NCBI GenBank assembly: GCA_023375675.1 | Contig: JALQBC010000025.1 | Location: 248,001 to 312,000 of the forward strand | Reading direction: 5' to 3' | DNA length: 64,000 nt | DNA from: Cytospora piceicola | Lineage: Eukaryota; Ascomycota; Sordariomycetes; Diaporthales; Cytosporaceae | Shown here: piece by piece, positions 169 through 60,541 of the stretch | Layout of the letters: every line of letters starts with the position of its first letter | Position numbering within the stretch: the stretch's first letter is position 1 | Program-made: the position numbers and the translations under genes | Notes under the pieces: generated by a model | Seen by the model: only the letters and a program-made list of their open reading frames with translations | Told to the model about the DNA's origin: nothing | The model's database searches: none

Positions 169-2800
169 ATTGAAGAAGTGACGGCACTGCCGACGAACAT
201 GGAGTGAGACTTGAGAGAACTACGAGCGACCAAGCAATACAGAGGAGGAAGTAGACCGAGTCAAGGAACGGGAAGAAGGGGAGAAACAGAGGAAAGGCAA
301 GGAAAGTTGATCAAGAGCCGAGGAACCCAAGCCGTTTTTGTTCTTCGGCCACGGCAGAAGATGGAAAGGGTGGTGTTACCTCGCAGCTGGAAGAGCTGGA
401 GAGTGAGAGTGTGGGAATGTGGGACTGAGTAGTTGCAGATGTATGTACTGTTATGTAAATATGTATGTATGTAAGAAAACAAACCGGGGGGCTGTGTACT
501 GTTGTGTTCCTATCAACAGCTCCATCCAACCAACCAACAATACCGGTCCGCGGGACGAATGATGGATGTACACAGTAGAGGGTATCGTGAGCAAAGCCGA
601 GGCCAGCCTGTGAAGGATAGATCATCACACAGCTTTGTATGCCCCTGGTAGCGAGCGCATTGAGCCGGGCCACTCAGTACTACTATAGAGAAAGGTTCGT
701 TTGGGGGGGGGGGGCAGAGGGTATGTACATCCAACGATCGGAGAACGGAGCCGCACATTCGGGGGCCGTACGATGCAGCTGCATGTATGCCTCTCGACCG
801 TGGTTGGACAGGACCAACAAGTGCACACTCATCATCTGAGGTCATTCCGGGGGCCGGGCTCTGGCTGTTTTGGCCCAAACTTTCCAGCTCGTGAATATTG
901 ACGGCTCGATGGTGGTTTTTCTGAGGTGCTGAACTTGGCGCATGTCACCCGGATGTGTGAGGCTGTCCAAACGTCTCATGGTGTCGATGGGACGGGACTA
1001 CTTTTCCTCATGCTTGCTTTCCCCAGGAGATCATGGCTCAAAATCGAAGGAGACAGACCAAGTTGCATAAGCTAGCTTGCTTGGACCTGGGAGTGTGATC
1101 GGAAATTATTGGGCCAATCCTGCCCAGAACCGTTAAGAGAGCGAAAGACTCGAGGGGCGCTCTGGGTCCGGTACTGCGAGAAGACCTTCCGTGAGTAGCA
1201 AGCCATGGAGAGACGGCTCCTAGATCTGGAACCATGGTGGTCTCATTGGCTTCTCAAGGCTAACGGTGTTGAGAAGCAAGCACAAGCAAGACAGGTCGAA
1301 GATAGATGCAAATCCACTCTCTGCTGTGCCGGCAGAACAGCGGGCCTCTTCATATACCTACAACTGTAGGTATTTCGGTTGCGTCGATGTCAAAGCGCAC
1401 AAGGGGGGGTCTATGTTCTCGCTCCAAACTTAGACTATCCGTGTTGGTACACAGTAAGGGAACCCCAGTGACGGCTTCGGTTGTATGTCGAATGTCTGGT
1501 CGGCGTCCTTCAGGGTGGCTTAGACGACGTTAGCTCCACCACCTCATATCAACAGGGACGCGTAATCGGCAACGGCGGAACCAAAGACGGGCCCTCTCCT
1601 CTGGAAGAGCGAGGTTGGATGGTTGGCAGACATACTGACACCATATCGGGTATTTAAGCGATTAAGGTTATCGTCGAAGGCATCGGAGGCATCAGAGGCA
1701 TCAGATGCATCAGCGGAAGTGGATATTGAAGGTGGGTAAGTGGGTAAATGGGTAGGAGTAGTGACAGTGGTGATAGATGATGTGGTGTGCTTCAGGTCGA
1801 TAATGTTGCAAATCAAATGGTTCGGGAGTCGGGCATAGAACTCAACAGGGGGGGCCACCCCCCAATCTACGTATTTGATCGGGGTTGGGGGCGCTTTCAG
1901 AGGCCTGTATCCCGCAGCCAGCCCTGTACCAGTTGACCTACGGTACACAGTAGTGTACAATGCCTACCTAGGTACCTAGGTACCTAGGTGTGTCCAGTAT
2001 ATACCTAGGTATATAGGTATCTACCTAGGATACTCAAGTATCTAGATAGGTCGGATAGGTCACCCGCTGGACCCTGTGGATGGTGCGCTTCGTGATTGGT
2101 CCGTTTACTGAAAAGCCAATGGCTTGAGGGGCCAGGCAGCAGTTATCATACCGCAGTACTAACCGAATTGGGGGGTTTCCAGGTAGGTTCCTTCCTTGAA
2201 GCTGACATGCTAACATGATGACATGATATCTGGCTCGCAAGGCCAGACTGTTCTTCTTCCAGTATCCATCTACTGAGTACTTAGTAAGGTAGTCCAAGAG
2301 GTTACAGCCTCTCTCAAACAGACAGATAATACCTACTTACTTCCTCACTTGCTTTACTGTGTACTGCCTGGGATGGGAGAGTGTGTCTCTGGTGCATCCA
2401 TCCGGTAACTTACCTACCAAGTTATTATTTGCCCCCCCCCCCGCCTCGTCCTCCCTCTTTTCCAACACTGACCGGCATTCGGACCCATCTCACCTTCCTC
2501 ATTATCGAACGCGCCGGCTGAAACAGGGAAACACAAGTATTCCGCGCCGTCCGACAACACATCCCACTGCTCGACCCCCGGTTATTCTTCGTGGTCGTCC
2601 TGTGTGGTCGTCCTGTGCGGTCCAGTCTTACTCTTACGTACACACTTACTTGGCAGGCTGAACCAACTCAACTGCCTGTCTATAGTGCGTGCTACAGACC
2701 TCCAACCCCCGACTACCGCCCAAGGTGTATCTAGTCGACAGTTGGCTGGCCAGGACACTCGAGAGGGGGAGGGAATTAGATCGAGGTCGAGAGAGACACC
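169..2800. other. Intergenic region between two divergent membrane-protein genes
   Basis: No coding region is supportable. It holds a 12-G run at 703-714, a cluster of TACCTAGGTA-type palindromes at about 1955-2050, a GCATCAGAG-type short repeat near 1685-1715, an 11-C run at 2432-2442 and a pyrimidine-rich stretch before 2801. Promoters of both flanking genes must lie here. Open frames in it are short and biased by the repeats. Confidence 0.5.
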
Positions 2801-4526
2801 ATGGACGAGAAGACGCTGCCGCCACGGCCTACTAGGTTCAACGCGGTGGGCTTTTGCTTAACCCTAATCCGTACATGGCAGTGGTCGTCTTCCTTTTTCG
2901 TATATGCCTCCTTCACCCTGCTCTATGATCATATCCAGAGAAACCGACTAGGCGAGAATGAGCGGATGAAAGAAGTCCAAATACTGGTATATTTCCTCTC
3001 TCTTGTCCCCAGTGCTAACCTTGTTGCCGCTCATTGCCCCCCTCCCCCAGAGCTGGATTCGTGTCCCAATGGCACAGTGTAGGTGCCTGTTACTATCATC
3101 GTGAACTGACCCGTTGTGTCCATCACTCCAGGGCCTAGTCTCTCTTGTTTACTCCACAGCTGTTGTGTGCTGTGTCCACATCTTGAAGACACTGGATATC
3201 CGCATATGGCGCGTATTCGCCGTCGTGTCCCTGCCTGGGGACTTGACCATCATGGGAATCTGCCTGGCCAAGATTACCATCCTGAGCTTTTCGGGTCTTC
3301 CGGCCGACGTGAGTATTATCCGAAAGCAAATCATCTTCCCCCTCTGGAAATTTCCTGAGTCCAAGAGACATGCTTAATCCGGGAGCAACAAGGGCTGTAC
3401 TCTTGGATCATGTCTCGTGATTCCCATTTCTTTCCCCTCCCGGAAAATACTGACTCTCGTTCTCGTAGTGTCACGGTCTCACAAGAGACAACTGTGAGTA
3501 ACCATCCCGCTTGGTGTCCTGGCCATGTACCGTAGACCTGCATAAGGCCCCGTCAAGCAACCCACTCTTCCCCAGCCATGGTAAAAGACTGATAGCTGAT
3601 GGACTTCCCAGATGATGGCAACGACCTAATGCGTCAGCCGGATGATGGCTATACCACCATCCGCTTTGGGTCAAGGGCTCATGATATATCCGGCGAGCTG
3701 GACGACCTCTGTACATTTCCTCGAACCGTCTACGGCCTCTCCGTAGCTGCCATGTAAGGAGGCTCCCACGGCAATGGCCTTTCAATCTGCAAGGGTCCCC
3801 TTGGCGCTGACACTTCATATTAGCTTCTCTTATACCTTTTCTATCCTACTCTCGGTCTTGTATCTCCAGTCCCAGTGGCGAGGACTGGAAGCCTTCGACA
3901 GCGAGAAAGCTATTCAGAGCCTGGCTGCTCATGACGAAGAGACGACACCGTATATGCATCCCGCATCGATCAGATATGCATCATCTCGCCCTCCTTCCCT
4001 AGTCAGCAGCAGCCGCCACAGCCCTTCAAGACCTCCATCGCCACCCCAAAGGTCCATCCGTAGTGCCACACCTTCCTACCGCAGCAGGATCTCAGATCGG
4101 TTATCCGAATGGGCAGAAGCGGGCCTCCGAGGTGACAGCCCAGGCGACGACAACAGCCGCACTCCCGCTCTCAGCTCGCGGACCCAGTCTGTCAGCTCCC
4201 AGTCCTGCTCCACATGGGTTGCCACCACACTGGTCAGCGACGCCGATTCCATACGTTCTGGAATTTCCCTCCCAGATTCGGCGTCCATCATCTCGGGGGG
4301 TTCACTTCCCCCAGCTCCCGTTCCTGGTTCCTCGGCCCACGCGCCCCAGAGGAGGTGGTCAAGCTCGACAAGCTCGTCGTATAACGCGAACGCCGCCTTA
4401 GTGACGGATGGTTTCCGTCCCGGGTTGGACCTGCCTTCGTATTCGAGCCGGCCTGGGAGTCTGTACCATGAGACAATGAAGTATGAGGCCGGCTTGAAGT
4501 TTCAAAACTGTGGCCCGTTTCCATGA
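2801..4526 (+). CDS. Multi-pass membrane protein with long Ser-rich cytosolic tail; carries an introner-like intron
   Basis: Six exons join in frame to 410 residues: 2801-2986, 3051-3078, 3160-3308, 3469-3493, 3612-3753 and 3824-4526. The N-terminal half has about four hydrophobic segments (starting FNAVGFCLTLIRTW and VVCCVHILKTL; then AVVSLPGDLTIMGICLAKI; and last GLSVAAIFSYTFSILLSVLYL) separated by a polar loop rich in Asp. The last 230 residues are a disordered Ser/Pro/Arg-rich tail, a plausible phosphorylation target. The layout suggests a fungal tetraspan or MARVEL-like protein of unknown function. Exons 2 and 4 are only 28 and 25 nt. The acceptor of exon 3 is ambiguous: 3160 keeps the frame, whereas the nearer AG does not join in the hydrophobic frame. 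Intron 3 (3309-3468) is a near-copy of the intron in the GH31 gene at 59260. Confidence 0.7.
3309..3468 (+). repeat. Introner-like intron, copy A
   Basis: This 160-bp phase-0 intron begins GTGAGTATTATCCGA and ends TCGTAG with a CTGAC branch site. It shares blocks with the 163-bp intron at 59260-59422 in an unrelated gene: the 5' 20 bases, TTAATCCGGG, CTTGGATCATGTCTC and AAATACTGA. GAGACATG (3365-3372) can pair with CATGTCTC (3409-3416), with ATCC/GGAT pairing just inside. Its size, hairpin and copy in another gene match the definition of fungal introner-like elements; the family assignment is inference. Confidence 0.75.
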
Positions 4527-55322: not shown

Positions 55323-55427
55323 GCCTTCTTGGCCAAGCGGTAAGGCATCGCACTCGTACTCATTCAATTTTCGAATTGGAATATTACGATAATGCGGGGA
55401 TCGACGGTTCGATTCCGTCAGAAGGCA
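55323..55427 (+). tRNA. tRNA-Thr (anticodon CGT) with 33-nt intron
   Basis: The acceptor stem GCCTTCT pairs with AGAAGGC, with discriminator A. The D arm is GCC...GGC, the anticodon stem TCGCA pairs with TGCGG (one G-U), the loop is CTCGTAA once the intron is removed, and the T arm is GACGG-TTCGATT-CCGTC. The anticodon CGT (55355-55357) reads ACG Thr codons. The intron occupies 55359-55391, one base after the anticodon, the canonical nuclear position. A T-rich stretch downstream from about 55454 can terminate Pol III. Confidence 0.92.
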
Positions 55428-58368: not shown

Positions 58369-60541
58369 ATGTTCACTCACTGCGAGAACCGCCTCACTTA
58401 CACCTACGACCACGAGCTCCTCCAACTCGAAGCATGGGGGCCCAATGCACTTCGCGTCCGGTCGACCAAAAGCGCTGCCATGCCCACGGAGAACTGGGCC
58501 CTCGACGAGCCCGTCCCTGGCACCACTCCAGATGTATCCATCACGCAGGATCAGGCAACTATCACCAATGGACTTGTCCGCGCCACAGTCTCCCGCCGGG
58601 GCAAGATCACCATCCACAACACCTCCACAGGAGAGCTCATACTAGAAGAGTACGCCCGCACGCGCATCGATGTGCGGGACCCGAAGACGTCGGCGCTGGA
58701 GGTGCAGGCACGGGAGTTCAAGCCCATAGTCGGCGGGGACTATGCCCTCACCCTTCGCCTGGAGTCCGTGTCTAAGAAGGAGAAACTGTATGGTATGGGA
58801 CAGTACCAGCAGCCATACCTTGACCTGAAGGGAGCAGACTTGGAATTGGCGCAGCGGAACTCCCAGGCCAGTGTTCCGTTCCTGCTGAGCAGCCTTGGCT
58901 ATGGTCTCCTGTGGAATAACCCCAGCGTCGGGCGGGCTGTGCTGGGAACAAATATCATGAGTTTCTCCGCGTCGAGCACCAACAAGCTCGACTACTGGGT
59001 CGTCGTAGACGATTCACCAAAGAAGATCGTCGAGGCATACTGCGCGGTGACGGGCAAGCCACCCATGATGCCAGAGTACGGCCTAGGCTTCTGGCAGAGC
59101 AAACTGCGCTATCAGACACAAGATGAGGTGTTAGAGGTGGCGAGGGGGTACAAGAGGCGGAACCTGCCCCTGGACGTGCTTGTGATCGACTTCTTCCACT
59201 GGCGCGCGCAGGGTGAGTGGTCTTTCGACAAGCAGTATTGGCCGGACCCGCAGGCCATGGTGAGTACTATCCGAGAGCGGTTATACTCCCTGTTTGTATT
59301 TTTCTCTTTTAAGTCCTGAGGCATGTTAATCCGGGGGCAAACATTGCAGTACCCTTGGATCATGTCTCACAACTCCCTTTCCTTACCCTTTCACCAGGCA
59401 AATACTGAATCCATTTTTGTAGTGCGATGAGCTCCGGTCGCTGGGCGTCGAGCCCATGGTGTCCATCTGGCCGACGGTGGAGCCCGACAGCGAGAACTGG
59501 GACGAGATGACGGAGAGAGGGTTGCTGATCCGTAGCGAGAGGGGCTTCCGCGCGGCCATGGACTTCCAGGCCAACACCGTGCACTTTGACGCGACGAACC
59601 CTGCCGCGAGGCAGTATGTCTGGGAGAAGGCGGCTAGGAACTACGGCCAGTATGGAATCCGTCTCTTCTGGCTCGACGAGGCGGAGCCAGAGTATGGCGT
59701 TTACGATTTTGATAACTGGCGGTACCATCTCGGCCCCAGCCTGGCTATCGGGAATATCTACCCGCGGAACTACTCGCAGGCCTTCTACGAAGGTGCCACG
59801 GCGGAAGGAGGCGGCGGCGGCAGGTTCCAAGGCCGCGAGGCGAATACGGTCAACCTCGTCCGCTGTGCGTGGGCGGGCAGCCAGAAGTTCGGCGCACTGG
59901 TCTGGTCGGGAGACATAGCGAGTAGCTGGGGGAGTCTGCGGAACCAACTCGCCGCGGGGCTGAATATGGGAGTCGCAGGGATATCGCACTGGACGACTGA
60001 TATTGGCGGATTCCACGGTGGGGACCCCAGTGATCCCGCGTTCAGGGAGCTGTTGGTGCGGTGGTTCCAGTGGGGTGCGTTCTTGCCGGTGTTCCGGCTG
60101 CATGGTGACAGGTATCCGAACAAGAAGCGCCTTGGAGACAGTGGTGGTGGGAAGTGCCCATCGGGCGTGGATAACGAAGTCTGGTCGTATGGCGAGGAGG
60201 TTGGGGCGATACTGGAGCGATATCTGAAGCTCAGGGAGGAACTGAGGGATTATGTGCGGAGTCTGATGAAGGAGGCTAGTGAGAAGGGGACACCCTTGAT
60301 CAGGACGCTGTTCCTGGAGTTTCCGGGGGATGAACACGCGTGGGAGGTGGAGGACGAGTACATGTTCGGCTCGAAGTATCTGGTTGCCCCAGTGCTGTAT
60401 CCGGGGTTGACCAAAAGGCAGGTATACTTCCCCACTGGAGCAGAGTGGAAGGAGATGGAAGGCAAGAAGTCCTACGAGGGCGGGGAAATAGCGGAGGTGG
60501 ATGCGCCGATAGAGAGAATGCCGGTGTTTGAGAGAATCTAG
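58369..60541 (+). CDS. GH31 alpha-glycosidase, alpha-xylosidase-like
   Basis: Two exons, 58369-59259 and 59423-60541, join in frame to 669 residues. An N-terminal beta domain leads to the (beta/alpha)8 barrel: PEYGLGFWQSKLRYQTQDEV, PLDVLVIDFFHW, then after the intron VEPMVSIWPTVEPDS. The nucleophile Asp is in LFWLDEAEPEYG and the acid/base Asp in ALVWSGDIASSW. Next come HWTTDIGGFHGGD and RWFQWGAFLPVFRLHG. These match GH31 enzymes of the YicI-like alpha-xylosidase branch; no signal peptide is seen, so it probably acts inside the cell on imported xyloglucan fragments or alpha-glucosides (inference). Its only intron is introner-like copy B. Confidence 0.87.
59260..59422 (+). repeat. Introner-like intron, copy B
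   Basis: This 163-bp phase-0 intron begins GTGAGTACTATCCGAGAGC and ends TTTTTGTAG. It aligns along its length with the intron at 3309-3468; most differences in the conserved blocks are transitions. GAGGCATG (59318-59325) pairs with CATGTCTC (59361-59368) with one G-U, and ATCC/GGAT pairs inside it. Downstream, both copies share AAATACTGA as the branch region. Confidence 0.75.

Follow-up and report, generated by a model that had tools for sequence, protein, structure and literature searches.

The systems closest to the introns analysed here are known from three bodies of work, each of which is cited for part of its content. The introner-like elements (ILEs) of the Dothideomycetes Fulvia fulva, Dothistroma septosporum and Zymoseptoria tritici are canonical introns that occupy unrelated genes and have common ends and a common sequence; their copies degenerate, those of D. 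septosporum show low identity to each other, and some insertions lie near regular intron sites, three of them within 15 nt of a regular intron of another species (PMC4457414). A stable RNA structure has been predicted for them (PMC3443670), and all these traits recur in the family described below. The stwintrons of the Xylariales resemble it in occurring in Sordariomycetes, in inserting seamlessly and without duplication, and in having near-terminal complementary repeats, of which the 3' one lies between the branch point and the acceptor; their insertion sites are reported to be random, without target bias (PMC12403724). Finally, a eukaryote-wide survey describes introns that, as here, have multiplied in genes, including ascomycete families that lack target-site duplications (TSDs) and terminal inverted repeats (TIRs) (PMC9860276).

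The stretch of DNA analysed in this work (64,000 nucleotides, hereafter the window) contains two introns, in a membrane-protein gene and in a GH31 gene (Table 1), which the initial annotation had interpreted as an introner-like element present in two otherwise dissimilar genes. Their positions, lengths of 160 and 163 nt, GT...TAG ends and phase 0 were verified, all strings claimed to be common to both are present, and both introns do sit between GCC-NNN and TG. The 19-nt 5' motif GTGAGTAYTATCCGARAGC, with three mismatches allowed, matches the window twice, both times exactly, against a mean of 0.02 matches in shuffled sequence. We propose that the two introns belong to one family of introner-like elements, which increased in number in this fungal lineage as copies inserted seamlessly into coding exons; we put the probability of this reading at roughly 85%.

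Table 1. Introner copies in the window, their parts, and the position of a putative older intron relative to the second copy
Feature	Position in the window	Strand	Basis
Introner copy 1, 160 nt, phase 0, in membrane-protein gene	3309..3468	+	sequence, genome search
Copy 1, 5' splice site GTGAGT	3309..3314	+	sequence letters
Copy 1, 5' near-terminal repeat CGAAAGC (consensus CGAGAGC)	3321..3327	+	consensus fold, letters
Copy 1, central hairpin, 5' arm	3357..3385	+	consensus fold, letters
Copy 1, central hairpin, 3' arm	3400..3423	+	consensus fold, letters
Copy 1, likely branch-point element TACTGAC	3448..3454	+	nearly invariant in alignment; role inferred
Copy 1, 3' near-terminal repeat GTTCTCG, in the interval between branch point and acceptor	3459..3465	+	consensus fold, letters
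Copy 1, 3' splice site TAG, followed by exon TG	3466..3468	+	sequence letters
Introner copy 2, 163 nt, phase 0, in GH31 gene, followed by exon TG	59260..59422	+	sequence, genome search
Copy 2, 5' near-terminal repeat CGAGAGC	59272..59278	+	consensus fold, letters
Copy 2, likely branch-point element TACTGAA	59403..59409	+	alignment, letters
8 nt from inferred older GH31 intron site to introner; exon unbroken	59252..59259	+	homologue alignments

Size and anatomy of the family

A search of the genome (43.6 Mb in 99 contigs) with each window intron, as the initial annotation had suggested, returned 27 places for the first and 13 for the second, and the best non-self match of the first (E 2.4e-36) was 82% identical across positions 1-160. 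With a consensus built from 28 copies as the query, at least 41 places were found genome-wide (40 of 50 candidates were scored), and with its middle part 36. Patterns made from the 5' and 3' ends occur in the genome at 24 and 22 places, respectively, and their reversed controls at none; a central pattern occurs at 32 places and its control at two. A profile run on the retrieved loci and the window identified 53 distinct places, 51 of them at E<1e-6, so that the element reading is supported by at least 51 copies rather than two; all copy counts are lower bounds, the profile having covered the retrieved loci and the window. The other two places are L059, situated within a gene region homologous to L060, and L056, which spans 37 nt; L060 and L064 themselves were found by pattern and gave no profile match. 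Counted by coordinates, the family occupies 50 places on 32 contigs, 43 of them near full length, and the addition of L013, L018 and L020, which are outside the coordinate table, brings the figures to 53 and about 46. One phosphoesterase-like gene carries two copies separated by an 81-nt exon (L004 1501-1898; G000:C22:324349-324746), two decayed copies lie on the same strand inside 1.2 kb (L061; G000:C2:782300-783500), and the contig of the window carries another copy, located some 2.7 kb before the window begins (L047; G000:C20:245154-245301).

The border was modelled in 52 copies (all except L053), and 45 of these have a score of 66 or more. Six of the 45 (L035, L039, L045, L046, L048 and L051) would have required borders picked by hand and were left out, so that the statistics refer to 39 clean copies. 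The count of exact boundaries proposed by the initial annotation gave GT...AG ends in 39 of 39; the acceptors, picked as the AG closest to the profile end, are TAG in 32, CAG in 4 and AAG in 3. The copies measure 142 to 181 nt (median 159), compared with a median of 72 nt for predicted ordinary introns (n=37), which the initial annotation described as mostly shorter, and they lie in phases 0, 1 and 2 in 16, 17 and 6 cases. Similarity between copies extends over the whole intron to its exact ends, and the flanks share nothing apart from TG. Pairwise identity averages 65% and reaches 92% in the closest pair, one member of which is in an alcohol-dehydrogenase-like gene (C6) and the other in a phosphoesterase-like gene (C22), which indicates that most copies are old.

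A second introner family was sought by comparing L021-L064 and the window, i.e. less than 1% of the genome, all against all, and none of the five matches obtained looks like one: one genome overlap, two matches from one homologous gene pair, one TACCTAGG repeat and one A+T-rich similarity of 119 nt. The TACCTAGG-rich simple repeat occurs at unlinked places (window 1959-2011 and L021 861-908). The A+T-rich segment (L041 4000-4116 versus L046 907-1024; 73% identity) has stop codons in every frame, terminates in CACTGTACACTG in L046 and CTACTGTACACTG in L041, and is perhaps a decayed repeat. An exact 23-nt pattern of the family had no matches in viral contigs.

From 5' to 3', the consensus consists of the donor GTGAGTAC, CGAGAGC, a long central hairpin, a pyrimidine tract, TACTGAC, GTTCTCG and TAG; the donor, TACTGAC and acceptor are common to the 28 copies of the seed alignment. 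On the basis of the fungal branch-point consensus, we take TACTGAC (TACTGAA in the GH31 copy) to be the likely branch point. In the consensus, CGAGAGC and GTTCTCG form a near-terminal complementary pair of 7 nt, which starts at position 13. The consensus is predicted to fold into the long hairpin plus a near-terminal stem at -48 kcal/mol (z -2.8; 3 of 200 shuffles equally good), and the near-terminal stem is strong in the consensus, only 0.0055 of shuffled windows being equally good; in the average copy it reaches -6.7 kcal/mol, versus -6.6 in 15 ordinary introns. The z-score of single copies has a mean of -0.8, and copies fold better the more closely they match the consensus (correlation of z with identity, rho -0.43, p 0.006). 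Together with their length, the consensus fold and its decay are traits of the ILE type, although just 9 of the 39 copies fall below -2. Covariation is almost nil: RNAalifold applied to 28 copies returned six pairs at an energy of -1.73 with a covariation term of 0.02, two of the pairs show one both-sided change each, and pairing within copies is not better than between copies (p 0.75). The idea that the hairpin is conserved after insertion was therefore rejected, as the structure is hardly retained. The folding models are rather consistent with a structure that was present in the active source and decays after insertion, and that may serve the spread of the element.

Insertion sites

The coding genes that house the copies are unrelated to each other, in agreement with the dissimilarity noted for the two hosts in the window, and the copies have the sense orientation. 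The longest open frames on either side agree after removal of the intron in 32 of the 39 copies and fail to do so in 7 (one third would be expected to agree; p 5e-10); the copies are predicted to be spliced from transcripts. A Pfam match crosses the joint in 8 of 10 scanned host fragments, six above and two below the curated cut-off, and glutamate synthase, GAR transformylase, the phosphate transporter and polygalacturonase align at the joint without gaps to proteins of known structure. Altogether, the coding sequence is seamless at the joint in all six conserved genes examined, with no codons gained or lost.

On the downstream side the target is far from random. In 31 of the 39 clean copies the exon resumes with T, and its first two bases are TG in 22 and TA in 5; the background frequency of TG is 7.6% (p 4e-15). 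Ordinary introns from these loci are followed by TG in 1 of 37 cases (Fisher p 1e-7; motif- and frame-picked predictions, 37 kept of 84 candidates), and those of a stricter predicted set in 0 of 15. Thus, of the flanks shared by the two window introns, the TG represents a family-wide bias, whereas the preceding GCC does not. Base -1 is unbiased (A in 11 and G in 9 of 39); A at -3, present in 19 of 39 (p 2.5e-4, uncorrected for the number of positions), is suggestive as a target feature. In conserved proteins, the downstream T(G/A) forms part of an ancestral codon, namely Cys in glutamate synthase, Trp in homoaconitase and Tyr in the transporter, and the bias is therefore a property of the target and not of the element.

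Comparison with homologues, in lists that comprise top scorers and are thus biased toward unbroken frames, reveals no conservation of the introns in distant relatives: the exact sites are mostly intron-free. All 120 homoaconitase homologues listed cross the site without a gap, and the close relative P0238 (92% identity over 87%) is intron-free; for glutamate synthase, 104 of the 120 listed span the site, 101 of them gap-free, and the close intron-free relatives P0242 to P0245 are 94% identical. Of the 119 non-self GH31 homologues listed, 84 are interrupted 1 to 4 codons before the site, where an older intron seems to have been located, whereas 29 align across it, all but one without gaps; the 29th, P0013, has about 18 additional residues directly upstream of the site that look like a read-through older intron. 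Within the same genome, paralogue matches are uninterrupted at the site in polygalacturonase (9), a gene that from the look of its sequence we take to be GH92-like (6), chitinase, the phosphate transporter and GH31 (1 each) and MFS (2, both weak, with a further match that starts directly after the site); the cutinase, alcohol-dehydrogenase-like and phosphoesterase genes have no same-genome paralogue match across the site. With the exact place so often intron-free in homologues and paralogues, these alignments argue that the introner positions are newly gained. Among the named relatives listed for homoaconitase, the nearest come from Cytospora schulzeri (89%), C. paraplurivora (88%) and Coniella lustricola (87%); the first and third of these species are members of the Diaporthales, and judging from this one gene the fungus that harbours the family is probably a Diaporthales-like Sordariomycete and not a Dothideomycete.

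In three of seven informative genes, picked for good homologues rather than randomly and with MFS excluded, homologues or a paralogue have an ordinary intron no more than about 21 nt away from the place of the copy, and this intron is absent from the copy-bearing gene. In GH31, 69 of the 119 listed homologues begin at the Met of a DAM motif and 15 have non-homologous residues right before it, which suggests an older intron after position 59251, 8 nt upstream of the introner; its phase 1 is deduced from the residues, and the Met start could be the gene caller's choice. A paralogue of the phosphate transporter has an ordinary intron of 102 nt six codons (18 nt) upstream of the corresponding place, which the introner-bearing gene lacks, and another paralogue match has no break. 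The possibility that this 102-nt intron is a decayed copy was rejected, as it gave no profile match at E<10. In glutamate synthase, 16 of the 120 listed homologues have frames that start at most 12 codons from the place, and in the five with clear non-homologous leaders the break falls between about 21 nt upstream and 3 nt downstream. No nearby break was found in homoaconitase, polygalacturonase, chitinase or the GH92-like gene. It is tempting to speculate that introner RNA reverse-splices into freshly spliced mRNA near an exon-exon joint, at sites where the downstream side preferably starts with UG or UA, and that copying back adds the introner and deletes the resident intron nearby. We regard this as rather unlikely; if true, it would explain the GH31 (8 nt), phosphate transporter (18 nt) and glutamate synthase (at most about 21 nt) cases, as well as the parallel gains reported beside old introns in other fungi with ILEs.

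Origin of the copies

Each inserted copy would bring its own donor, branch point and acceptor. The presence of the copies in genes and in the sense orientation, their exact intron ends, the lack of duplication and the decaying hairpin favour an RNA intermediate, as argued previously for fungal ILEs (PMC3443670, PMC9860276, each cited for part of its content). The copied entity would then be the intron RNA released by splicing. It would enter transcribed genes in one of two ways: through reverse splicing, with reverse transcription and recombination as later steps, or when the RNA or its cDNA is used to repair a break; the hairpin and the near-terminal stem could shield this RNA or keep its two ends close to each other, and decay later. 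What speaks most against a random insertion of RNA is the one-sided TG preference.

A one-sided preference of this kind would suit an enzyme, and the DNA route therefore retains some weight. A non-autonomous DNA transposon that carries both splice sites, prefers T(G/A) and makes no duplication would account for the downstream bias by enzyme-driven insertion, and most introner families outside the ascomycetes look DNA-based, as far as the survey is cited here (PMC9860276). However, no TSD is detectable in the 39 copies, within-copy matches of the flanks being no more frequent than between-copy ones (p 0.94 and 0.98), and flanking direct repeats of 3 nt or more are likewise absent from them; TIRs are missing from the very ends of the consensus, where the only complementary pair is the 7-nt near-terminal one; and 0 of the 39 copies, all genic, are reversed within their own gene. 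We thus consider a DNA transposon an unlikely source. Helitrons are marked by 5' TC and 3' CTRR and insert between A and T; a Helitron origin was rejected, given the GT and (mostly T)AG ends and the unbiased base -1.

Derivation from a [D1,2] stwintron, in the manner of the "cropped" sister introns of Hypoxylon, is brought to mind by the common fungal class, by the similar arrangement of the near-terminal repeats, the 3' repeat being placed downstream of the branch point and upstream of the acceptor (PMC12403724, cited in part), and by the T-R after the acceptor, which resembles the TRAGT that follows the internal intron of a stwintron. In a [D1,2] stwintron the internal intron lies between G1 and T2 of the external donor and is followed by TRAGT, but here TR does not continue into AGT (A at +3 in 2 of 39), the base at -1 is G in just 9 of 39, the consensus inspected by eye contains no internal donor/acceptor pair of the stwintron type, and the repeat sequences differ from those published (PMC12403724, in the part cited); this derivation is not supported and strikes us as very improbable.

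Ordinary homology, i.e. duplicated genes or a conserved RNA of the sort that introns can host, deserves practically no credence, as the hosts are unrelated, the similarity runs end to end and stops at the exact intron ends, and the four weak Rfam hairpin matches, in four loci and overlapping two copies, reach 14 to 30 bits where 50 to 81 would be required. In the window, no Rfam family reaches its gathering score, except for tRNA elsewhere; the tRNA gene match in question (55323-55427, + strand) is 105 nt long, a length sufficient for an intron.

Comparison with described introner systems

We regard the family as a real introner-like one, of a kind already known. What appears to be new is its probable occurrence in the Diaporthales, for which no report of introners was found in the literature searched (most subscription papers being outside it), and the TG bias, of which no description was found for fungal introner families in the portion of the literature covered. 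The origin of new spliceosomal introns is an open question, for which the family represents an independent case. It offers three testable marks, namely the one-sided TG preference, the decay of the hairpin after insertion and the possible loss of an adjoining resident intron, which together could separate RNA-mediated from DNA-mediated intron gain.

In comparison with the Dothideomycete ILEs, as described in the part of PMC4457414 cited here, our family resides in another fungal class and shows a TG preference that was not found described for them. In contrast to it, most non-ascomycete families of the eukaryote-wide survey possess TSDs or TIRs (PMC9860276, in part). With respect to the Xylariales stwintrons (PMC12403724, in part), which share with it the class, the seamless joints and the placement of the repeats, it differs in consisting of single canonical introns of about 159 nt, in the sequences of the repeats, which here begin 12 nt inside the donor end, and in its TG-biased insertion sites, as opposed to sites for which no bias is reported.
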